Shown one piece after another: positions 421 to 10,120 of a stretch of 10,120 nucleotides of DNA. Source of the stretch: Nitrospinota bacterium. GTDB taxonomy: Bacteria > UBA8248 > JACPRG01. Within the stretch, counting starts at the first letter, position 1. The number at the start of each line of letters is the position of its first letter. The position numbers and the translations under genes were made by a program. Location of the stretch: assembly GCA_030740135.1 (NCBI GenBank), contig JASLXW010000112.1, positions 1-10,120 of the forward strand, written 5' to 3'. The notes beneath the pieces were generated by a model that saw nothing but the letters and a program-made list of their open reading frames with translations, had not been told where the DNA came from and made no database searches.

Positions 421-1176
421 TCAGGCCGTTCTAACCGTATTTTCGACTTGTGCATTGATCGCCAGGAGATCCGGATGGCACGTCAGGAGGGCGACGACGT
501 CCAACCAGGAGAAACCCGGGTTCTCGGGTAAAAGGGCCTCAAAAACCCTTCGCACAAATTCATAATCCTCCGTCTCATCCACGCACAATCGCAAATGAGA
601 GAAATCGGTCTCATACTCCACGGAGGACAACTGAAATTCACCCGTCGGCAGACCTTCGCAATTCCGGCCGTGGATATAAGGCGTAACGTGCTCCCGGTGG
701 TAGGGGTGCCGGGCCTCGGCGGCAGCCCGCTCCAACGCGGCACGGCTGAAAACCTCCGTATCCAAGCCCTGGGGATAGGTTCGGCGAAGGATATTGGAAA
801 CATAGTCTACAGAATCAGCGCGGTCTTCGTAATGCCGAATGACCCGATCGACAACCTTCGGGTCGATGAAGGGACAATCCCCGGTCAGACGCACAACGAC
901 GTCCGCTTGAGAACGCTCGGCCGCTCCTCGATAACGGTCCAGGACGTCGGACTCGCTCCCGCGAAAACACAGAACGCCGAATGTCCGGGCAACCTCTTCC
1001 ACCTCGTCGTCCTTCTCCCGATCCGACGTGGCCACCCGGATTTCGTCAATCGTTTCGCACCGCTTGACCCGATCCAGCATAAGCGAGAGCAGCGGACGGC
1101 CGCAGGCCTCCATAAGCACCTTTCCGGGAAGGCGCGAAGAACCCATTCTCGCCTGGATTACGCACACGACCTTCAA
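421..1176 (-). CDS. spsF: SpsF-type cytidylyltransferase (CMP-sugar synthetase family)
   Basis: A 251-residue protein of the CMP-NulO synthetase/SpsF family (cytidylyltransferase-3 fold), close to the usual family length. Visible motifs are QARMGSSRLPGKVL at residues 8-21 (nucleotide-binding loop), the IRVATS strand at 46-51, RGSESDVLDRY at 72-82, RLTGDCPFIDP at 96-106 (metal and substrate site) and YPQGLDTEVF at 134-143. It probably activates a NulO or related sugar with CTP in the cytoplasm; whether that sugar is the LegI product is an inference from context. The start is the TTG at 1176, whose last bases overlap the pseG stop (TTGA), with GAGGGA 7 nt upstream. An in-frame ATG at 1380 lies far inside pseG and adds 68 residues of shadow sequence. 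The overlap implies translational coupling with the PseG homologue. SpsF and SpsG also neighbour each other in Bacillus spore-coat polysaccharide loci. The family call is secure; the substrate is not. Confidence 0.88.
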   Translation of the reverse strand: MKVVCVIQARMGSSRLPGKVLMEACGRPLLSLMLDRVKRCETIDEIRVATSDREKDDEVEEVARTFGVLCFRGSESDVLDRYRGAAERSQADVVVRLTGDCPFIDPKVVDRVIRHYEDRADSVDYVSNILRRTYPQGLDTEVFSRAALERAAAEARHPYHREHVTPYIHGRNCEGLPTGEFQLSSVEYETDFSHLRLCVDETEDYEFVRRVFEALLPENPGFSWLDVVALLTCHPDLLAINAQVENTVRTA

Positions 1177-2279
1177 GGTTCCATCCCTCGGCGCCGAGGC
1201 GCGGTCGAGGCCCAGGCAGGTTGATTGACACTCATCCTCATTGCCCGGACAATTCGCGCCGCCCCTTCTCCGTCCAACACGGTCCGTCCCTTTCTCGACA
1301 TCTCGCGGCGCAAAGCATGACCTTCCATCAACTCCTTGAGGTGTGCGGTCAAACTCGACTCGCTTACGTCCTCCCACCATCCCAGGCTCCGGGATACACC
1401 GGCCTTCTCCAGATGGTGCGCGGCGCCCTTCTGGTTATCAGCCAATACAAGAATCAAATTGGGCAAACCCATAAAGGCCAACTCCCAACAAGTGCTTCCC
1501 CCTCCGGAAACCGCCACATCCGCCCACGCCATCAGCTTGGACATGTCCGTTGGGTCTTCCTGAACCGTCACGTCGAGACCCAAATCATCGCCAACAGCCC
1601 GCAGAGCGCCAACCTGGGCGCCCGCCGGGCCGATCACAACGACGACCTCTAAATTCTCCACACCGTTTCCGGCCAATCGCGCGACGGCCCTCAACACCTC
1701 TGCCGCCTGATTGCCGGGATCCCCCGCGCCCAGGGTTATGAGAATCCGGCGGGCGAAGGAGGGGACCTCGCGCTCCCAATTCCTCCAGCGGAGAAACTCC
1801 TCCCGCAACAGGGCGTAACGCAGGCCCACGAGCAGGCGGGTTTCCCCCCCGCAGGCATAGGTACAGTCCTCCGCCCCGAGGTTTTGGTTCACGATGATGT
1901 CCGCGTGGTAGCGCGGCAGATGCGCCATGTCGTCCATGACAAGAACCCGGACCCCGGTTTCTTGCATTTCTTTCTGGTAGGGGGATTCGAAATGATAGCC
2001 ATCCAGCACGATCCAGTCGGGCCTGTAGTCTCTCAAGAAGTCTATGGTCCGCTCGGCGTCTTCAGGGGCAGGGTGGCTCATCGTCAGCGGGACGAGGTCA
2101 AAACCGCTCTTCCGCACCCGCGCCCGCATGGCGTCCGAATCGATGACCGAAACAAAGATCGCCTCCCCGCCCCTCGAACGGAATTCTTCGGCCAACCGGA
2201 GACACCGCATGAGGTGTCCCCCGCCCACCTCCCGGCCGGCGTCACAACGGACAACCAATCGGGGAACAGGCTCAGTCAT
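1173..2279 (-). CDS. pseG: PseG/SpsG-like UDP-sugar hydrolase
   Basis: A 368-residue GT-B-fold hydrolase related to PseG, which cleaves UDP from UDP-2,4-diacetamido-2,4,6-trideoxy-beta-L-altrose in pseudaminic acid synthesis. Diagnostic residues are RCDAGREVGGGHLMRC at 11-26, with the catalytic-type His 22 in the GGGH loop, and the MurG-like UDP-binding loop SGGGSTCWELAFMGLP at 258-273 followed by LADNQ at 279-283. Its length is typical, and no acetyltransferase domain is fused to the C-terminus. The start is the ATG at 2279, preceded closely by AGGGA; an upstream TTG at 2303 would add eight residues but has no ribosome site. The stop overlaps the TTG of the cytidylyltransferase by 4 nt. A separate LegG/NeuC-type hydrolysing epimerase is present upstream, so this enzyme may serve a second sugar or an SpsG-like role. 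The family assignment is strong; the exact substrate is inferred. Confidence 0.88.
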   Translation of the reverse strand: MTEPVPRLVVRCDAGREVGGGHLMRCLRLAEEFRSRGGEAIFVSVIDSDAMRARVRKSGFDLVPLTMSHPAPEDAERTIDFLRDYRPDWIVLDGYHFESPYQKEMQETGVRVLVMDDMAHLPRYHADIIVNQNLGAEDCTYACGGETRLLVGLRYALLREEFLRWRNWEREVPSFARRILITLGAGDPGNQAAEVLRAVARLAGNGVENLEVVVVIGPAGAQVGALRAVGDDLGLDVTVQEDPTDMSKLMAWADVAVSGGGSTCWELAFMGLPNLILVLADNQKGAAHHLEKAGVSRSLGWWEDVSESSLTAHLKELMEGHALRREMSRKGRTVLDGEGAARIVRAMRMSVNQPAWASTAPRRRGMEP

Positions 2280-2402
2280 GGTTTCCCTGGCAAAACCGGA
2301 CAAGTGAATTTCGGGATCCGATCACCGGTGGGACACCCAACTCCCGGCGCGAGGCGGCGCCTTCGTGGCAACATGGCCTTGGGGAAAGCGGGCGGGCGGC
2401 AT

Positions 2403-3101: not shown

Positions 3102-3551
3102 TCAGCGCTCATCGACGTTCCAGATATCCCAATAGCGGGAGTCGTATCGGACGTCATCGTCCCGCGACTCTTCCAGTGCCGAAGTGGAGAAGAAGATCAA
3201 GTTTGCGTCTTCGGTCAACGACATCGTCCCGTTGGCAAAACCCGCCGGGATGTAGAGGACAGCGGGCCTTTCGGCGGATAGAATCACGCGCTCTACAGAG
3301 AGATCCTTGGATGGACGATCCCAATTGTCGATTTTCACCGCCCCGACGAGGGCCGCCCCCTGCGCGACGAACACATATTTGGCCTCGCGGCGGTGGGCGT
3401 GCCAGGCGCGAACGAATCCAGGACGGTGGTTCCTGATCATGTAAAACCGCTTCACGCCCTCGAAGTCGAACCCGTTGACGGAGCTCAGGGCGCCCCGATC
3501 GTCGACGTGAAGCCCCCCCTCAATCACCCGAACGCTGTCCACGTTTTCCAT
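3102..3551 (-). CDS. RmlC/FdtA-like cupin sugar epimerase or ketoisomerase
   Basis: A 149-residue single-domain cupin resembling dTDP-4-dehydrorhamnose 3,5-epimerase and the shorter sugar 3,4-ketoisomerases (FdtA, WxcM C-terminal domain). It begins with GGLHVDDRGALSSV at 12-25, has the histidine-rich strand VRAWHAHRREAKYVFV at 47-62 (His51 and His53 in the place of the catalytic-base region), a substrate-pocket strand YIPAGFANGTM at 100-110, and ends in DVRYDSRYWDIWNVDER, like the tail of RmlC proteins. At this length it matches FdtA/WxcM-like domains better than the roughly 180-residue RmlC. It would act on a 4-keto-6-deoxy nucleotide sugar. Its ATG overlaps the stop of the upstream CBS-SDR gene by one base (TGATG), with GGAAG 4 nt upstream, so the two are probably coupled and may act in successive steps. 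Epimerase versus ketoisomerase is undecided. Confidence 0.82.
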   Translation of the reverse strand: MENVDSVRVIEGGLHVDDRGALSSVNGFDFEGVKRFYMIRNHRPGFVRAWHAHRREAKYVFVAQGAALVGAVKIDNWDRPSKDLSVERVILSAERPAVLYIPAGFANGTMSLTEDANLIFFSTSALEESRDDDVRYDSRYWDIWNVDER

Positions 3552-4957
3552 CAGTCTTCCAGTCCGGCCCCGTCCAACGGCGTTCCCACAAAGGCGAAGG
3601 CGTTGGTGTATTGTTTGTCTTCGTAATCTTCGATTTCCCCGTTTTTCAGAGCCTCTACAATCTCCTGGACCCCCTCTCGGACGCTGACAGAGGGGATAAA
3701 GCCCAGCATCCGCTTGGCCTTCTCACCTGAAACCCGGTAATTTCGCGGGTCAACGGCGGCCGGGTGATAGACCACCTCCGTATCCGGCAATAATTTCAGG
3801 ATGACGTCCGCCAGCTCGCCGATCCGGCGGTTCTCCCCGACGACGTTGAACACCTCATTGCCCACCTTCTCAATCGGGGACTCCAAGACCAACTGAATCG
3901 CGCGCGTGACATCGGCCACGTGTACGTGAGGACGCCACTGGTTTCCGCCGAACACCTCGAACTTCCTTTTGCGGACCGCATGGGCCGTCAACGTATTGAC
4001 CACCAGATCGAAACGCGGGCGATGAGACATTCCGAACGCCGTCCCCAATCGCAGGACACACGGAGAAAAGTTGCCCGTCCCCATTCCCAGGACCACGCGC
4101 TCGGAGTTGATCTTCATCTTTGCGTACAACGAAACGGGAGCCAGCGGCGAGCTCTCATCCAGCGTCTCGTCCGGATCCGGGCTCGTGCCGTAAACGCTGC
4201 AAGAAGACAGATACACAAAACGGTTGATCTGCAAATGATCGCAGATTCTGGCGATGGAGGCCGTCGCCAGATAGTTGATCTCGAAGGTCGTCTGAGGTTC
4301 CCGCACACAGAGGGGATCGCCCACCAGCTCCGCCAGGTGAACCACCGCGTCCGCCTTTTGAATGACGGGGACCAGGTCGTCGAGATGACGCGTGTCGCCG
4401 CACTCCATCTGAAATTTCGGATGATCCTTGAACGGATGAAGCGACGTGTCGCCGTACAGGAGCCTGTCCAGCACCGTCACGGAATAACCCGCGTCCAACA
4501 GGCGATGGACGAGCGTCGAGCCGATATATCCCGCCCCTCCGATGACCAGAACCCGGGCCGGCTTCATGGCGGCTTGCGCCCGATCCCCCACGGCGCCGCC
4601 GTGAACCATCAACTCCGTCTGCGACCGGAGGTCGACCGGAACCCCTTGATTGTCCACCACGGGAATCCACGCCGGCGTCCGCTCCTGGAACCCGGCGCTT
4701 TGCAGCAGGCGGATGATCTCTTCGTCGCTGGAGCCGTCTCGGACCACAACCGGGTCTTTCGTCATCAGCCCTTCAACGGAACTTTCCAAATCGACGCCTT
4801 CCAGGATGGCCCGGCGGATGTCCCCATCCGTCACGACGCCGATCAGGCGATTCCCCTCATCGACGACGAAAGCGATGCCGGTATTGACCCGGTCCATCTT
4901 CTGGATAGCGCGCAATATCGGATCATCGCGACGGAGGCACAGCCCTAAGATTTCCAT
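3551..4957 (-). CDS. CBS-pair fused to NAD-dependent nucleotide-sugar epimerase/dehydratase
   Basis: A 468-residue fusion. Residues 1-115 form two CBS repeats: repeat 1 carries DPILRAIQKM (12-21), FVVDEGNR (30-37) and the ligand motif GVVTDGDIRR (40-49); repeat 2 ends in IPVVDNQG. Residues 131-440 are an extended SDR: GGAGYIGS at 140-147 binds NAD, GDTR at 187-190, HLAELVGDP at 207-215, SSCSVYG at 251-257, and the Tyr278-x-x-x-Lys282 pair in LYAKMK; QWRPHVHVADV at 340-350 and DPRNYRVS at 403-410 are typical of sugar epimerases. It is not a clear LegB dehydratase. Residue 131 is a Met directly before ARVLVIGG, the normal N-terminus of unfused SDRs, which suggests the CBS part was added. The start at 4957 has AAGGG 4 nt upstream; longer in-frame starts to 5059 add residues with no domain. 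It follows legC by 61 bp and overlaps the cupin gene. The substrate is unknown. Confidence 0.85.
   Translation of the reverse strand: MEILGLCLRRDDPILRAIQKMDRVNTGIAFVVDEGNRLIGVVTDGDIRRAILEGVDLESSVEGLMTKDPVVVRDGSSDEEIIRLLQSAGFQERTPAWIPVVDNQGVPVDLRSQTELMVHGGAVGDRAQAAMKPARVLVIGGAGYIGSTLVHRLLDAGYSVTVLDRLLYGDTSLHPFKDHPKFQMECGDTRHLDDLVPVIQKADAVVHLAELVGDPLCVREPQTTFEINYLATASIARICDHLQINRFVYLSSCSVYGTSPDPDETLDESSPLAPVSLYAKMKINSERVVLGMGTGNFSPCVLRLGTAFGMSHRPRFDLVVNTLTAHAVRKRKFEVFGGNQWRPHVHVADVTRAIQLVLESPIEKVGNEVFNVVGENRRIGELADVILKLLPDTEVVYHPAAVDPRNYRVSGEKAKRMLGFIPSVSVREGVQEIVEALKNGEIEDYEDKQYTNAFAFVGTPLDGAGLED
4854..4870. repeat. 17-bp direct repeat inside the SDR-fused CBS domain (copy 1)
   Basis: CCCTCATCGACGACGAA occurs here, within the codons for VVDEG of the first CBS repeat, and again at 6558-6574 in the broken CBS frame, in the same orientation and reading frame. 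The match extends without gaps to about 4930, with roughly 54 of 77 bases identical by hand count, so it is the core of a longer homologous stretch. Confidence 0.8.
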
Positions 4958-5018: not shown

Positions 5019-6524
5019 TCACGGACTGACCCCCCGAACCCATTCCAGCAGGCAATCAATCACCCGGTCCTGCTCCGTCTCCTGCAGATGCACCGAGGAC
5101 GGCAGGGCCACGCCTCGGGCGAAGAGATCCGGGGCAACCGTCACCCGGTAAGCCATCTCGCGGGCGTACATGGGAAGTGTGTGCAAAGGCTGCCACAGGC
5201 GGCGGGATTCGATGCCGCGCTCACGCAGGTGCGTCACCAGATGTGCCGCGGCGCCCTCTCCGCCGGTCTCCACGAGGACCGTAAAGAGCCAAACGGAAGC
5301 CGTCGCCCAATCCGCCGTCGGCATGCAGGACAGGCCCGGAGTGTCTCGTAAGGCCTCTCTGTATCGTTCGGCGATTTGGCGTTTGCGCTGCAGAAATTCC
5401 TTCAGCCGCTCCATCTGGGCGAGGCCTATCGCCGCACAGACATTCGTCAGGCGATAATTGAACCCGATGGCATCGTGGCTGCACTCTTCTTCCGAATCCC
5501 GGGCCTGTGTGGTCAGATGGCGGGCGCGCATCGCCAGTCCTTCCTCGTTGGAGACGAGCATCCCGCCCCCCCCGGCCGTCACCACCTTATTCCCATTGAA
5601 ACTGAAACAGGCCACGTCTCCCAGACACCCGGCGGGCCGTCCCTTGTACAGGGCGCCCAGCGCCTGACACGCATCCTCGATAACCGCCAGGCCGAACCGG
5701 CGGGCGACCTCCAGAATGGGATCCATATCGGCCGGATGGCCCAGCAATTGAACGGGCAGAACCGCCCGGATGCGGCGCCCCGTGCGCTGGTTCACAGTCT
5801 GGCCGTTTTGGACCGTTGCCTCCTCTTCCAAATAATTTCGCAGTTTCTCGGGGTCCAGGTTCCAGCTCTCGCGGTCGACATCCATGAAAACCGGATGAGC
5901 GCCGCAATAGGACACCGCATTGGCCGTCGCCACAAAGCTCAACGCCGGGACCAGGACTTCCTCATCCGGCTGAACCCCGGCCACCAAGAGAGAGATGTGA
6001 AGCGCGGCCGTCCCATTAACCGTGGCCACGGCGTGCCGGGCGCCAATCCAATCCGCCACAGCCTCCTCGAAACGAGCCACGAAGGGTCCCGCCGAGGAAA
6101 CCCAGGTGGTCTCAATGGCTTCCTGGAGATACTTCATCTCGTTTCCGGCGAACCAGGGAACAGCGAGGGAAACCTGGCCGCTCAGGTCTGCGGAGACCTC
6201 CAGGCCCACCAGGTGCATCGCACCGTCCACGATGGGAACATGGCGCAGCGACCGGCTCTGTATCAGGTGAAGGACCTCTTCCTCAGAGGCATCCGCCCGG
6301 GCGGTCACCGGGGTTGGATTCATGACCAAGCGCACCAAGGCATCTCCGCCGACACCCCGGAGCATCCCCCGGCGCAAGTCACCGTCCGTCACCGTCCCCT
6401 GAAGCCGGCCGTCCGCGCCCACAACCAGCACCAAGCCCATACCGCCGGCGTCTATCCGCCGCATCGCCTCGTGGACGGGGTCCTCCGGCGAAACCACGAC
6501 TTTATGGAAGTTACTTTTCTTCAT
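5019..6524 (-). CDS. legC: CBS-pair fused to LegC-family PLP aminotransferase
   Basis: A 501-residue fusion. Residues 8-113 are two CBS repeats with the adenosyl-ligand motif GTVTDGDLRRG at 43-53; the second repeat is degenerate (GLEVSADL, 107-114). Residues 118-501 are a DegT/DnrJ/EryC1 aminotransferase matching the LegC subgroup: WVSSAGPFVARFEE (141-154), NGTAALH (170-176, phosphate site), WNLDPEKL (221-228), RIRAVLPVQLLGHPADMDPI (251-270), VIEDACQALGA (281-291, Asp284 facing the pyridine nitrogen), FSFNGNKVVTAGGGGML (307-323, PLP lysine Lys313) and GFNYRLTN (354-361). LegC makes the 4-amino sugar from UDP- (or GDP-) 2-acetamido-4-keto-2,4,6-trideoxyglucose in legionaminic acid synthesis. 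Known LegC proteins are about 380 residues, so the CBS pair is extra. The ATG at 6524 overlaps the TGA of the CBS remnant (ATGA). A TTG at 6551 with GAGGGA 5 nt upstream is a real alternative, adding nine residues. Confidence 0.9.
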   Translation of the reverse strand: MKKSNFHKVVVSPEDPVHEAMRRIDAGGMGLVLVVGADGRLQGTVTDGDLRRGMLRGVGGDALVRLVMNPTPVTARADASEEEVLHLIQSRSLRHVPIVDGAMHLVGLEVSADLSGQVSLAVPWFAGNEMKYLQEAIETTWVSSAGPFVARFEEAVADWIGARHAVATVNGTAALHISLLVAGVQPDEEVLVPALSFVATANAVSYCGAHPVFMDVDRESWNLDPEKLRNYLEEEATVQNGQTVNQRTGRRIRAVLPVQLLGHPADMDPILEVARRFGLAVIEDACQALGALYKGRPAGCLGDVACFSFNGNKVVTAGGGGMLVSNEEGLAMRARHLTTQARDSEEECSHDAIGFNYRLTNVCAAIGLAQMERLKEFLQRKRQIAERYREALRDTPGLSCMPTADWATASVWLFTVLVETGGEGAAAHLVTHLRERGIESRRLWQPLHTLPMYAREMAYRVTVAPDLFARGVALPSSVHLQETEQDRVIDCLLEWVRGVSP

Positions 6525-6661
6525 GAATCCGATGGAACTGAAGTCGAACAACGTTGTCCCTCATCGACGACGAACACCATGTCTTCACGGACGCGACGCA
6601 TCATCTGGATGACCCGCAATAATGGATCAAGACATACGAAAATCCCAGCGGTGGACGTCAC
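6521..6661 (-). pseudogene. Broken CBS-domain reading frame (46 codons)
   Basis: Between legG and legC an open frame encodes a recognisable first half of a CBS repeat: DPLLRVIQMMRRVRED followed by MVFVVDEGQR. Over 27 residues it shares 16 with the first CBS repeat of the SDR fusion and only about 6 with the CBS of the adjacent legC fusion (hand counts). After EGQR, where a CBS domain continues with a GVVTDGD-type strand, the frame reads unrelated residues CSTSVPSDS and stops, so the rest is missing. A GTG at 6661 has GAGG 6 nt upstream, and that GAGG overlaps the legG stop. The TGA overlaps the legC ATG. It is most likely the 5' stub of a lost CBS gene, such as a CBS-nucleotidyltransferase; it might still be translated and couple legC to legG. 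I do not claim a functional product. Confidence 0.65.
6558..6574. repeat. 17-bp direct repeat inside the CBS remnant (copy 2)
   Basis: Identical to 4854-4870 and in the same frame (VVDEG codons). Homology to the SDR-fused CBS continues on the high-coordinate side but stops abruptly just below 6558, which marks the likely recombination or deletion junction next to the legC start. Confidence 0.75.
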
Positions 6662-6669
6662 AGGCCGCC

Positions 6670-7857
6670 TCAGCACTGCAGGACTTTCTGGATGGAAGGC
6701 AGTGTTATTTCCGCCAACGTCTCGGCCACCTTCTCCCCCGCGCGGCCGTCCCCGTAGATGGGGGTTGGTTCGTAACGCCCATGTTCCACTTGTGCCATAA
6801 TCGCTCGGTAAATGCTCTCCGAATCGTTGGGCGAGTCCACCACGTTGTGTCCCCGTTCCCTTCGCTGTTGTCGTATGCCCACGTTGACGACCGGCGTGCC
6901 CAGATAGCAGGTTTCCCGGATCCCCGCCGAGCTGTTTCCGACCATGCAGGCCGCATGACGCATCATATTTACGAAAATCAAAGGGCTCAAGAGATTGAGG
7001 GTAAAATATCGACCATGCGCACCGTTCCTCCGTGAGAACACTCGAATTTTCTCTACAATCTGACCGGCCCCTGCGTCCACGTTCGGCCAGAAACATATCG
7101 TATACAAATTGGTGCGGAAGACTGCGTCCAAGGTTTTGAGTATTTGCTCTTCCTGTTCTTCAAACTGCGTCGTCACCGGATGCTGGACCAGGAGCAGGAA
7201 CGGTTCATCCTCACAGAACAGCGGCTCATTCTTCCACAGGAGCTTCAGCTCCTCCGCAAACTGTTTCCGATTCAGCCCCGTCACCTCAAGGACAGAATCC
7301 GTACCGGGACATCCAACATTGAAGACGAAATCCGGGTTCTCACCCATCGCAATGATTTTCTTCCGGGCATCCTCCGTGGCCGGAAAGTGAATGTGTGACA
7401 ATTTGGTGATGGCGTGTCGAATCGATTCGTCGAAGCTCCCGGTCACCTCGCCACCTTGGATGTGCGCCACGGGGATGTTCATGGCGGACGCCGCAATCGC
7501 AGCAGACAACGCTTCGAACCGGTCACCCGGGACGACCGCCACATCCGGCCGCAGGCGCTCGAAACAAGTTGCCAGATCGCAGATCCCAAGGCCAATGGAG
7601 CGGGCCATGGCCGTTGGATTTTCGCCTTCGATGATTTGGTAAATCTTTTCGTCGATTGTGAACCCGTCATCAACGATTAGGTCCACCGTATACCCGTGGC
7701 GCCTCAGCAAATGCGCTCCGGTCACCACGGTCTGGAGCTCCAGCCTCGGGTCCCGGTCGATGGCGCGCATGACCGTCCGGCAACGGGTGTAGTCTGCCTG
7801 GTTACCGGTGACAACACAGATTTTGCGGACCGACGAAGACGCGGTGTTGGAAGTCAT
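6670..7857 (-). CDS. legG: Hydrolysing UDP-N-acetylglucosamine-type 2-epimerase (LegG/NeuC)
   Basis: A 395-residue GT-B-fold epimerase of the NeuC/LegG family, which inverts C2 and releases the nucleotide to give a free ManNAc-type sugar, here presumably 2,4-diacetamido-2,4,6-trideoxymannose for the downstream synthase. Motifs: VVTGNQADYTR at 15-25, VVTGAHL at 44-50, VVPGDRFEAL at 108-117, HIQGGEVTGSFDESIRHAI at 132-150 (NeuC-type GGE signature), QHPVT at 225-229 and the UDP-binding GNSSAGIRE at 307-315. The length is typical. The ATG at 7857 overlaps the legI stop (ATGA) and has GGAGG 10 nt upstream inside legI. An in-frame upstream ATG at 7974 lies within legI and adds 39 residues unlike the family. 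It is coupled to legI, as expected for consecutive pathway steps. UDP versus GDP sugar cannot be told from sequence. Confidence 0.92.
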   Translation of the reverse strand: MTSNTASSSVRKICVVTGNQADYTRCRTVMRAIDRDPRLELQTVVTGAHLLRRHGYTVDLIVDDGFTIDEKIYQIIEGENPTAMARSIGLGICDLATCFERLRPDVAVVPGDRFEALSAAIAASAMNIPVAHIQGGEVTGSFDESIRHAITKLSHIHFPATEDARKKIIAMGENPDFVFNVGCPGTDSVLEVTGLNRKQFAEELKLLWKNEPLFCEDEPFLLLVQHPVTTQFEEQEEQILKTLDAVFRTNLYTICFWPNVDAGAGQIVEKIRVFSRRNGAHGRYFTLNLLSPLIFVNMMRHAACMVGNSSAGIRETCYLGTPVVNVGIRQQRRERGHNVVDSPNDSESIYRAIMAQVEHGRYEPTPIYGDGRAGEKVAETLAEITLPSIQKVLQC

Positions 7858-8888
7858 TTCACGATATCCTCCGGGGTCAGCGTGACATCGGACTTCAGAG
7901 AACGGCGCGCCCTTCGACCGAGGGTCAGGCCCAGCTCGGCTGCGGGAATGCCCGTCCCCGGACGTTTGACCCATAGATTGTCTAAGGTGAACTTTTCCCT
8001 TTCTTCGATGTCCCGAATGCTCACAATGCTGGCATAGGCGAACTCGATGACCGGCTGCTCACCCGGCAAGATGTCCTTCGACCCATTGGATGCCGCATGG
8101 ATGGCACGTGACCCTTTCACCAATTCCGCCAGCTCCGCCGGCTCGATGGATATGGACACGTCCGGTCCCGGCCACTCACGAGTGATCGTAAAATGCTTTT
8201 CCAGAGCGCAAGCACCCAGAGCGACGGCCCCCAAACAGGTGTAAATTCCGATGGAATGATCACTCAATCCGACGGGTAGCCCGAACTCCCGCTTCAGTTC
8301 CAGGATTGCACCGAGGCGCACATTCTCATAGGGCGTCGGATACATAGACGTACAATGCATGAGCATGAGCGGCACGTTGTTCTTACGGAAAATTTCCACA
8401 GACTTTCGGACCGAGGGAATATCGTTCATACCCGTCGAAAGGATGACGGGTTTTCCTTTTCGGGAGATGTGTTCAAGAAAGGGCAGATTGTTGCACTCGC
8501 CGGACCCGATCTTGTAACCGAGAACCCCCATATTCTCTAAACGGTCTCCCGCCTCGCGAGAAAAAGGAGTGCACAAATAAAGGATTCCCTTCTTTTCGCA
8601 GTAATCCTTCACTCGCCGCTCCTCATTCTCCGTTAACTCGCATCTTTTGATGATGTCCCACAGGCGCTCCTCTGAAATTGCCCCGGGCTTCATGTCGGTC
8701 GGGACCATTTCCGCCTCGGTGATGTGGCATTGAAATTTGATGCAATCGGCTCCGGATTCCACGGCTGCGTCCACGAGTTCGATCGCCTTACTGAATTCTC
8801 CTTCGTGATTGATTCCGACCTCAGCGATTACGAACGGCGAAAATCCGTCACCGATCTTACGGTCACCGATCTGGAACTCAGACTTCAT
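7854..8888 (-). CDS. legI: N-acetylneuraminate/legionaminate synthase (NeuB/LegI family)
   Basis: A 344-residue sialic-acid synthase that condenses phosphoenolpyruvate with a free 6-carbon N-acetylated sugar to form a 9-carbon NulO. The N-terminal TIM barrel (about 15-260) shows FVIAEVGINHEG at 19-30, CIKFQCH at 49-55, YKIGSGE at 125-131, STGM at 151-154, and the metal-binding histidines in LSDHS (His211) and EKHFT (His232), followed by WPGPDVSIS at 239-247. A C-terminal SAF (antifreeze-like) domain spans about 285-344 with SIVSIRDIEEREKF and RPGTGIPA. The neighbouring legG and legC favour legionaminate over Neu5Ac or pseudaminate, but sequence alone does not prove this. The ATG at 8888 is preceded by GAGG 13 nt upstream, a distant ribosome site. 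It is the first gene after the largest non-coding gap in the window (8889-9083). Confidence 0.92.
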   Translation of the reverse strand: MKSEFQIGDRKIGDGFSPFVIAEVGINHEGEFSKAIELVDAAVESGADCIKFQCHITEAEMVPTDMKPGAISEERLWDIIKRCELTENEERRVKDYCEKKGILYLCTPFSREAGDRLENMGVLGYKIGSGECNNLPFLEHISRKGKPVILSTGMNDIPSVRKSVEIFRKNNVPLMLMHCTSMYPTPYENVRLGAILELKREFGLPVGLSDHSIGIYTCLGAVALGACALEKHFTITREWPGPDVSISIEPAELAELVKGSRAIHAASNGSKDILPGEQPVIEFAYASIVSIRDIEEREKFTLDNLWVKRPGTGIPAAELGLTLGRRARRSLKSDVTLTPEDIVK

Positions 8889-9083: not shown

Positions 9084-10120
9084 TTACGAAACCCGATGTC
9101 TCAGCCTCCACTCTCCTTCTTCCCGCATCCAAAGATGCGGAGAGCGGAACTGATCGCAGAGCTCCGGGAATCTCTCCGGTCTTATTTCCAGGTAATCCAT
9201 GACCTCATGGAAGTATTTTTCCGGGAATTCCCCGTCGAAGCGGTGGACCAGGGCCACGCCTTCCTCCCGCGTGAGATGTCGGTTCCGGATCTCCTGGGAG
9301 GCGTCGTACGTCGCGCGGCCGATTCCAAACTTGATGTAGGTTGTGTAGTAATGAAGGCCGTCGATTCGGTCGTCGAGGCTGTTGGATTTACTATAGGTTC
9401 CCTCCGTTCGGAACGGGTTTGCCTGAAAACCCGTGTTTTCTACGGCATAGTAATAGGCCTCTTGGGGCGTCCATTTCAGGTAATATCCCAGATAATGGAC
9501 TTCTATGGGGCACCTGGCCAACTCCCTCTCGTCCGCGGGCAAGTACGGCTCAACGTCCTTCCGCGTCATACCATGCTTTTCAAAAAGCTCCTCTATGGGA
9601 ATGCCGGCTAGGCGAATCTCCGACAGGTTCTCCATCGCATAGAAGGATTTTTCTCGAAGGGAAGTCGTGTTATCGGCAAGGGGGTTTCCATGTTCCGCCT
9701 CGTTATCTCCATAGAATACAAGCGGAATGTTGTACCTCAGGGCGATTTTCGGCGCCAAGTTTTTCTGGCCCAGGATAAAGGTTTGGAACGGATGCATAAG
9801 CTTCTCGATCGCGAGACGCGTCAGCAAACGGTGGACGCGGCCGTTGGGATGGAACAGGACGTTATCCAGTCCGCCAACATCCGTCCAGTTTCGAAAATTC
9901 TGCCACCCAATATCTGTGTAGAGGATCGGCGGCCAGGTGCATGTCAGCGGATTCATGCCGTATTTGTATTTCAGGACATGGGCGGCGTATGCGCTGTCCT
10001 TTCCGCCGCTGCCGGGAACCAGACAATCGTATGAGCCGTCGCTTCGGCGAAACCGGTCGCAAAGCTCCACCAATTCCTTCTCCCGCTGGTCCCAATCAAT
10101 CTGCTCTTTCTGCTCCACGT
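9084..10120 (-). CDS. N-acetyl sugar amidotransferase (WbpG/PseA-like), 5' end cut by window
   Basis: The C-terminal 345 or so residues of an ATP-pyrophosphatase-type amidotransferase; the frame stays open to the right edge. IDWDQREKELVELCDRF precedes the PP-loop DCLVPGSGGKDSAYAAHVLK (about 31-50 of the visible part), then LTCTWPP, FILGQKNLAPKIA and VFYGDNEAEHGNP, all typical of the WbpG/PseA group. Family members are around 375-400 residues and begin with a Cys-rich metal-binding segment, which would lie just outside. The GTG at 10118 is therefore more likely an internal Val than the start. The family converts an N-acetyl group to an acetamidino group on a nucleotide sugar, using ammonia from HisH/HisF-like partners that are expected nearby but not visible here. 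It lies 195 bp upstream of legI, on the same strand. Together these suggest an acetamidino-modified NulO or uronic acid. Confidence 0.9.
   Translation of the reverse strand, partial: VEQKEQIDWDQREKELVELCDRFRRSDGSYDCLVPGSGGKDSAYAAHVLKYKYGMNPLTCTWPPILYTDIGWQNFRNWTDVGGLDNVLFHPNGRVHRLLTRLAIEKLMHPFQTFILGQKNLAPKIALRYNIPLVFYGDNEAEHGNPLADNTTSLREKSFYAMENLSEIRLAGIPIEELFEKHGMTRKDVEPYLPADERELARCPIEVHYLGYYLKWTPQEAYYYAVENTGFQANPFRTEGTYSKSNSLDDRIDGLHYYTTYIKFGIGRATYDASQEIRNRHLTREEGVALVHRFDGEFPEKYFHEVMDYLEIRPERFPELCDQFRSPHLWMREEGEWRLRHRVS

Follow-up and report, generated by a model that had tools for sequence, protein, structure and literature searches.

Within a stretch of 10,120 nucleotides from a Nitrospinota bacterium (contig JASLXW010000112.1 of assembly GCA_030740135.1; hereafter, the window), one gene of a nonulosonate cluster encodes a LegC-family aminotransferase preceded by a pair of CBS domains. 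This gene (5019..6524, minus strand) runs from an ATG at 6524 to the stop at 5019 and is confirmed to be an intact fusion: its 501 codons form an uninterrupted frame, with no frameshift between the CBS and aminotransferase parts. A TTG at 6551 is a possible alternative start that would add nine residues. CBS-aminotransferases of this architecture are rare but recurrent, and at the NeuB loci examined they occur without the CBS-nucleotidyltransferase that accompanies nearly all unfused LegCs. The favoured reading, to which we would give a little less than an even chance, is that the CBS pair senses a ligand on behalf of the nonulosonate pathway, as a module that moves between early enzymes and tunes pathway entry. 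A CBS pair of the TDGDxRR type, normally located on the nucleotidyltransferase dedicated to the pathway (PtmE type, a name given here to proteins recognized by their domains), is in the present case joined to a LegC-type aminotransferase.

The CBS pair covers residues 1-117 (6174..6524, minus strand) and is matched by Pfam PF00571 in two stretches, one for each repeat (54.5 bits for a cut-off of 24, E 1.5e-14). Repeat 1 reads GTVTDGDLRRG, with TDGDLRRG at its core, and agrees with the ligand motif G-h-h-T-x-x-D; repeat 2 (GLEVSAD) matches this motif only in part. The catalytic part (5019..6173, minus strand) is matched by DegT_DnrJ_EryC1 in Pfam (E 6.9e-109) and by the NCBIfam model of LegC, TIGR04181 (460.3 bits, cut-off 420). 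No nucleotidyltransferase domain PF00483 was found in the protein by Pfam. The lysine of the SFNGNKVV motif (K313) is invariant in all 34 aligned rows and is presumably, as in the family generally, the one binding pyridoxal phosphate. These results bear out an earlier note on this DNA, which had described, without naming a strand, a LegC-like aminotransferase with its pyridoxal phosphate lysine in FNGNKVV, preceded by about 115 residues of CBS pair with an intact TDGD in repeat 1. Third-position GC content is alike on either side of the junction (0.795 in the CBS part, 0.743 in the enzyme part), so that there is no sign of a chimera. AlphaFold2, supplied with the 34-row alignment, predicts that both parts fold well (mean predicted local distance difference test score, pLDDT, 94.2; predicted TM-score, pTM, 0.83), and the helix/strand order of the first 110 residues is CBS-like. 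Among the best 50 of 1,987 matches to solved structures, the closest are 7b0m, a sugar transaminase of metagenomic origin, and a GDP-perosamine synthase; of the 501 residues, the alignments cover about 380-390 columns, with TM-scores of 0.69-0.70 by query length. The window protein is very likely a working LegC-type aminotransferase of the nonulosonate cluster, its catalytic activity being predicted from sequence.

A protein search with the window CBS-LegC (7,997 candidates scored, 7,734 matches, the best 120 listed) gave, among the 119 non-self matches listed, one CBS-LegC (P0012) and nine CBS-nucleotidyltransferase-LegC chains of 756-774 amino acids (P0017, P0019, P0020, P0021, P0024, P0027, P0045, P0048, and P0069), the remainder being without CBS in their precomputed domains. 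P0012 has the same layout as the window protein from end to end, with 46% identity over 99% of the length. Six phyla, identified through named records (Planctomycetota, Acidobacteria, Dehalococcoidia, Alphaproteobacteria, Desulfobacterales, Zixiibacteriota), were then surveyed over 1,407 genomes (294, 297, 251, 299, 148, and 118), the best few candidates of each genome being scored. Of the 198 LegC-like matches at E <=1e-75, seven span the CBS part (3/54, 1/36, 0/7, 3/67, 0/34, and 0/0 by phylum); the phylum of G004 had no LegC-like match among its 118 genomes. One of the seven, L131, is spanned by the match range but has a degenerate CBS (20.8 bits against the Pfam cut-off of 24); this locus, which is without NeuB, was tallied as unfused and stands outside the comparison of NeuB loci given below. 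Some matches, among them those of G1152 and G1493, start only at query positions 87-99, inside the end of the CBS part; in the four that were read (L142, L157, L160, L176), the aminotransferase is free of CBS. When the orders to which two of the fused genomes belong were searched with fused queries (E <=1e-90, 130 genomes each), 3/3 and 4/4 matches spanned the CBS part, starting genomes included. CBS-aminotransferases, with CBS confirmed by profile, are also carried by plasmids of Azospirillum sp. TSA2s, Rhodobacteraceae bacterium SC52, Pseudohalocynthiibacter aestuariivivens, and Roseovarius pelagicus, the last two sharing one protein accession. The fusion is not special to the window locus, and neither is it the common architecture of LegC. 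Other arrangements were seen in passing. P0010 and P0035 join LegC to a second DegT enzyme, in either order, and P0068 joins it to a short-chain dehydrogenase/reductase (SDR). At L102 (8251-11042, minus strand), a CBS-aminotransferase adjoins a CBS-GDP-mannose 4,6-dehydratase within a NeuB cluster.

Gene neighbourhoods were read at 16 CBS-aminotransferase loci, window included, at 102 loci around non-spanning matches (of 191, mostly from the tops of the lists), at L031 (from a genome scan), and at L131. NeuB is present at 13 of the CBS-aminotransferase loci: the window; L102, L129, L130, and L132 from the phylum surveys; L189-L192 on plasmids; L193 and L195-L197 from the order searches. None of these 13 has a CBS-nucleotidyltransferase, versus 45 of the 48 NeuB loci with unfused LegC (Fisher p 8.5e-11, kinship ignored). 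The contrast holds when the window and the identical L192 are left out (0/11, p 1.3e-9). The three unfused exceptions are L162, L207 (on a 10.7-kb contig), and L226 (on a 4.2-kb contig). Among the last 40 loci, fetched after the rule had first been seen, 16 of the 18 with NeuB conform, and both exceptions lie on the 10.7- and 4.2-kb contigs. The contrast is weaker in the first batch without the NeuB filter (CBS-nucleotidyltransferase in 0/16 versus 39/64, p 5e-6), and four of 22 later loci lacking NeuB have a CBS-nucleotidyltransferase. In seven whole genomes with a CBS-spanning aminotransferase, four of which hold loci counted among the 13, CBS and nucleotidyltransferase are nowhere found within one open frame; a match in G1078 does extend over the two regions, but is interrupted by two stop codons.

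SDR enzymes enter the same picture. In L031, L139, and L202, a CBS-less relative of the SDR encoded next to the window CBS-LegC (37-44% identity) is encoded between a CBS-nucleotidyltransferase, which it directly follows, and a downstream LegC; this arrangement fits the rule that the CBS pair sits on one early enzyme or another. Across 52 loci whose SDR shares 34% identity or more with that of the window, NeuB is found in 3/7 where the SDR has CBS versus 3/45 where it has none (p 0.026). The complementary loci suggest that the CBS pair may serve the pathway as a whole. In the earlier note, it had been proposed that control would be moved from the first step of the pathway to transamination. 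The distribution of the CBS-nucleotidyltransferase agrees with such a move; however, because the gene that follows CBS-LegC also has a CBS pair, the move would not be to transamination alone.

CBS pairs commonly bind nucleotides and signal through changed assembly. We know of no established account of how entry into the synthesis of legionaminic acid and related surface sugars is controlled. In the favoured reading, clusters devoid of a CBS-nucleotidyltransferase would carry the same kind of CBS pair on the aminotransferase or on the SDR enzyme, as the window does on both. The pair would most likely bind a nucleotide or a CMP-sugar, the identity of the ligand being a guess, and would tune flux at early steps through the oligomeric state or the activity of its carrier enzyme. 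The simplest model would be feedback or energy sensing at these steps, mediated by the nucleotide or CMP-sugar. The motif itself, defined as [TS][DE][GARS]DxRR, is widely kept. It is found in 16 of the 17 CBS-aminotransferases besides the window, in 56/59 CBS-nucleotidyltransferases and in 106/114 CBS-SDRs, as well as in 9/9 CBS-nucleotidyltransferase-LegC chains, 3/3 CBS-UDP-glucose dehydrogenases, 3/4 SIS-CBS proteins, and the single CBS-GDP-mannose dehydratase. Thus, the module keeps its own motif across carrier enzymes, an argument that it has a function in its own right.

Where the pair came from was considered through both parts of the protein. In a first aminotransferase tree, built with relatives up to P0060 and the fused proteins, the window LegC falls inside a clade of unfused LegCs (100/97). 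In a larger, quick tree, the fused and unfused states need four changes by parsimony, the four fused groups being a Pseudomonadota clade of ten (support 99), whose three named members are Alphaproteobacteria, a clade comprising L102, L108, L109, L132, L189, and the degenerate L131 (support 90), P0012, and the window. When 5.8 billion proteins were searched with the CBS part, 23 non-self matches were obtained, of which 19 are PtmE-type CBS-nucleotidyltransferases (best 53% identity; in one of them, P0134, CBS is visible only with a profile of our own) and four are SIS-CBS proteins. The resemblance to the PtmE type claimed in the earlier note was well seen in this respect. The phylogeny that the same note called for gave a divided answer. 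In a tree of 59 rows, containing 20 of the 114 CBS-SDRs (14 of them random) and leaving out short matches and the window copies P0001 and P0144, the window CBS groups with the nucleotidyltransferase and SIS rows (90/93). With 80 rows, including more CBS-aminotransferases and leaving out seven near-copy loci and short matches, the approximately unbiased (AU) test leaves this grouping standing (p 0.478) alongside a grouping with the other CBS-aminotransferases (0.42) and a pairing with P0012 (0.534). Two other origins were considered for the window. The AU test speaks against a copy of the CBS pair of the adjacent CBS-SDR, which it rejects at p 0.015 (five groupings were examined, without correction). 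Derivation from a CBS-nucleotidyltransferase-LegC chain by loss of the middle domain is unsupported, given the position of the window LegC part among unfused LegCs; this applies to the window and not to P0012.

Several observations weigh against the idea of a mobile sensing module. On the tree, the independent contrasts number only two or three (sign test p 0.5); averaged over random pairings, 1.9 of 2 go in the predicted direction, and the rest show no difference. The window spans 10 kb and eight of the other 12 fused loci were read within about 9 kb, so that a CBS-nucleotidyltransferase could lie beyond. NeuB clusters with neither CBS carrier in view are also known (L162, L030, L048). The classical motif G-h-h-T-x-x-D, which repeat 1 of the window has, is found in that repeat in only 6 of the 17 other CBS-aminotransferases, versus 53/59 CBS-nucleotidyltransferases and 108/114 CBS-SDRs. 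The remaining 11 of the 17 are without it, and in L129 (ERTVTDGD) and L130 (ERTLTDGD) the glycine is replaced. The LegC assignment also narrows outside the window. Of ten CBS-aminotransferases scored, a set that includes the window and the degenerate L131 and leaves L189-L197 outside, the window protein and P0012 are alone in passing the LegC cut-off of 420. The other eight, L131 included, score 319-393 bits, the best model being LegC in seven and PseC in P0260. Because eight of the ten fall below the cut-off, the recurring architecture is called LegC-like here and not strictly LegC. Finally, no solved chain joining CBS and aminotransferase was found: all 56 sequence matches at E <=1e-10 are best in the aminotransferase part, and the names of the 23 solved structures matching the CBS part include no DegT enzyme.

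The main null explanation, which we regard as unlikely but serious, is one of pathway type. Clusters that start from UDP-GlcNAc would need no nucleotidyltransferase of their own, CBS pairs on LegC or SDR would have arisen for other, unconnected causes, and the pattern would reflect two types of pathway together with shared descent. The small number of independent contrasts favours this view. So does the fact that 12 of the 13 fused NeuB loci show no nucleotidyltransferase at all, while L132 has a CBS-less one, and so do the several source groupings left standing by the 80-row tree. However, such an explanation leaves the repeated recruitment of the same TDGDxRR-type CBS pair unaccounted for.

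The main functional rival, rather doubtful in our judgement, gives the CBS pairs a structural role. CBS pairs form discs, and those of LegC and of the SDR would join the two enzymes into a complex handing over an unstable keto-sugar. Two adjacent genes with CBS pairs in the window, and the adjoining CBS-aminotransferase and CBS-GDP-mannose dehydratase of L102, are what would be expected. In the same line, the SDR-LegC chain P0068 and the CBS-nucleotidyltransferase-LegC chains (9 of the 119 relatives listed) show early enzymes brought together, and the loss of the classical motif in most other CBS-aminotransferases is more easily reconciled with a structural role than with sensing. Yet, among the 16 loci with a CBS-aminotransferase, no CBS-SDR is in view besides the window and L102, and the aminotransferase is a plain one in CBS-SDR clusters such as L001, L005, and L006. 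Moreover, the AU test speaks against the two CBS pairs of the window being closest kin.

It is improbable, in our view, that the CBS pair is a leftover, fused when a gene deletion joined a neighbouring CBS gene to legC and now of little effect. A broken CBS head at 6521-6661 in the window, described below, indicates that a CBS gene was broken up here, and the relative L131 has a degenerate CBS. These points are to be set against the TDGDxRR-like motif kept in 16 of the 17 other CBS-aminotransferases, against a single clade in which ten CBS-aminotransferases from different genomes and plasmids have kept the pair, and against the intact repeats and repeat-1 motif of the window. As for an assembly artefact joining two genes, it is scarcely credible and largely refuted: the window record is short (10 kb), but its codon make-up is uniform, P0012 is a relative over the full length, and the same architecture occurs on plasmids labelled complete from named isolates and on contigs of 2.7 and 7.3 Mb.

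The module reading can be extended to the cluster as a whole. It is possible, although we hold it more tentatively than an even bet and would not press it, that the TDGDxRR CBS pair controls the pathway as a whole and is retained by the cluster even as its carrier changes. The window, having CBS on both LegC and SDR and a broken head after NeuC, would then represent a transitional state. The carrier would be a nucleotidyltransferase, an SDR, or an aminotransferase, whichever early step the cluster controls. If one CBS module does stay while the carrier enzyme changes, control of these sugars would be a movable part, and the CBS pair of PtmE itself would gain a role.

The window protein can be compared with several known systems. 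It shares the catalytic domain and the SFNGNK lysine of the LegC family; the unfused relatives listed are mostly of about 360-420 amino acids and begin at the aminotransferase, whereas the window protein adds the 117-residue CBS pair. PtmE-type CBS-nucleotidyltransferases (PF00571 plus PF00483) have the closest CBS pairs, at up to 53% identity, with the same TDGDxRR and in the same clusters, but the window protein has no nucleotidyltransferase domain and carries its CBS on the aminotransferase instead. The CBS-nucleotidyltransferase-LegC chains resemble it in having the CBS pair and LegC on one chain; they differ by the extra nucleotidyltransferase, located between both parts in P0017 and P0021, and their LegC parts group apart from that of the window. 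CBS-SDRs of archaeal and bacterial nonulosonate clusters (L001, L003, L005), to which the gene after CBS-LegC also belongs by type, are again early-step enzymes with such a pair at the N-terminus. They differ from the window CBS-LegC in their catalytic domain, and the aminotransferase of these three clusters is without CBS. In SIS-CBS proteins, presumably arabinose 5-phosphate isomerases of the KdsD/GutQ type (an identity backed by NCBIfam matches), a related pair is again found on a sugar enzyme, but it is C-terminal and the enzyme domain is an isomerase.

In the literature, no paper was found that links a CBS domain with legionaminic or nonulosonic terms, supplements and subscription papers being outside the scope, so that an earlier remark may exist. 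Searching for CBS domain together with DegT gave only papers on heart topics, unrelated as judged from titles and the beginnings of abstracts. An archaeal legionaminic cluster has been described in which the gene numbers of LegB and LegC are consecutive; the main text of that paper has 'CBS' only as the name of a web server (PMC6137143). PtmE is named in two papers whose main texts do not contain 'CBS' (PMC7371886; PMC13317340).

The genes around CBS-LegC form a nonulosonate cluster. On the minus strand, the order is WbuX, NeuB, NeuC, a CBS stub, CBS-LegC, CBS-SDR, an RmlC/FdtA-like isomerase, a TylF-like methyltransferase, a PseG-like hydrolase, a cytidylyltransferase, and a gene running off the window end, whose label of sulfatase was read from the letters with no database match behind it. 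The first gene (9084..10118, minus strand) is a WbuX-type N-acetyl sugar amidotransferase (TIGR03573, 304 bits, cut-off 203.2). It is followed by the NeuB/LegI-type synthase (7854..8888, minus strand; PF03102, 257.7 bits; TIGR03569, 362.2 bits, below the cut-off of 399.65) and by the NeuC/LegG-type UDP-GlcNAc 2-epimerase (6670..7857, minus strand; TIGR03568, 387.9 bits, cut-off 235.9). The NeuC start, ATG at 7857, overlaps the NeuB stop, and its open frame reaches 7974. Further on are the PseG-type hydrolase (1173..2303, minus strand; TIGR03590, 216.3 bits, cut-off 153.55) and the cytidylyltransferase, resembling CMP-nonulosonate synthetases (421..1380, minus strand; PF02348, 115.4 bits). The LegB partner (TIGR04180) was not recognized within the 10-kb window, the neighbouring SDR scoring 70 bits against a cut-off of 475. 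Since, in addition, the cluster combines a NeuC type with a PseG type and the NCBIfam score of NeuB falls short of the cut-off, it is named only to the nonulosonate level. As a side observation, the NeuC-type hydrolysing epimerase (6670-7857) and the PseG-type hydrolase (1173-2303) stand in one cluster; enzymes of these two types usually serve different nonulosonate routes.

Between NeuC and CBS-LegC lies the CBS stub (6521..6661, minus strand), a frame of 46 codons starting with GTG at 6661. Over the first 37 codons it resembles the beginning of a CBS pair, and its TGA overlaps the LegC ATG as ATGA. Its closest match is the start of the CBS pair on the SDR of the window (56% identity over 32 amino acids), the match E values of 1e-6 and 2e-5 coming from small home-made databases, and it has no Pfam match up to E 0.1. 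The slot next after NeuC, defined by strand together with 0.9-1.9 kb between 3' ends, is occupied by a CBS-nucleotidyltransferase in 19 of the 43 loci having both genes. In L003 (1.1 kb) and L005 (0.65 kb), a CBS-SDR follows NeuC. The position would fit the stub being the head of a former CBS-nucleotidyltransferase, whereas its sequence is nearest to the SDR CBS and the arrangement of L003 and L005 has a CBS-SDR in that place. The stub may be what is left of a CBS gene since lost, or else a short leader frame coupled to LegC.

The gene after CBS-LegC (3551..4957, minus strand) encodes an SDR-family NAD enzyme of 468 amino acids with an N-terminal CBS pair containing TDGDIRRA. With its CBS region as query, 114 of the 119 non-self matches listed are CBS-SDRs, a family found in bacteria and archaea. 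A profile search of genome contigs with the SDR alignment had its best locus at 51% identity, versus 80% for the protein P0145. In the 59-row tree, the CBS pairs of P0254, P0255, and P0263, carried by enzymes of the UDP-glucose/GDP-mannose dehydrogenase type, lie near that of the window SDR.

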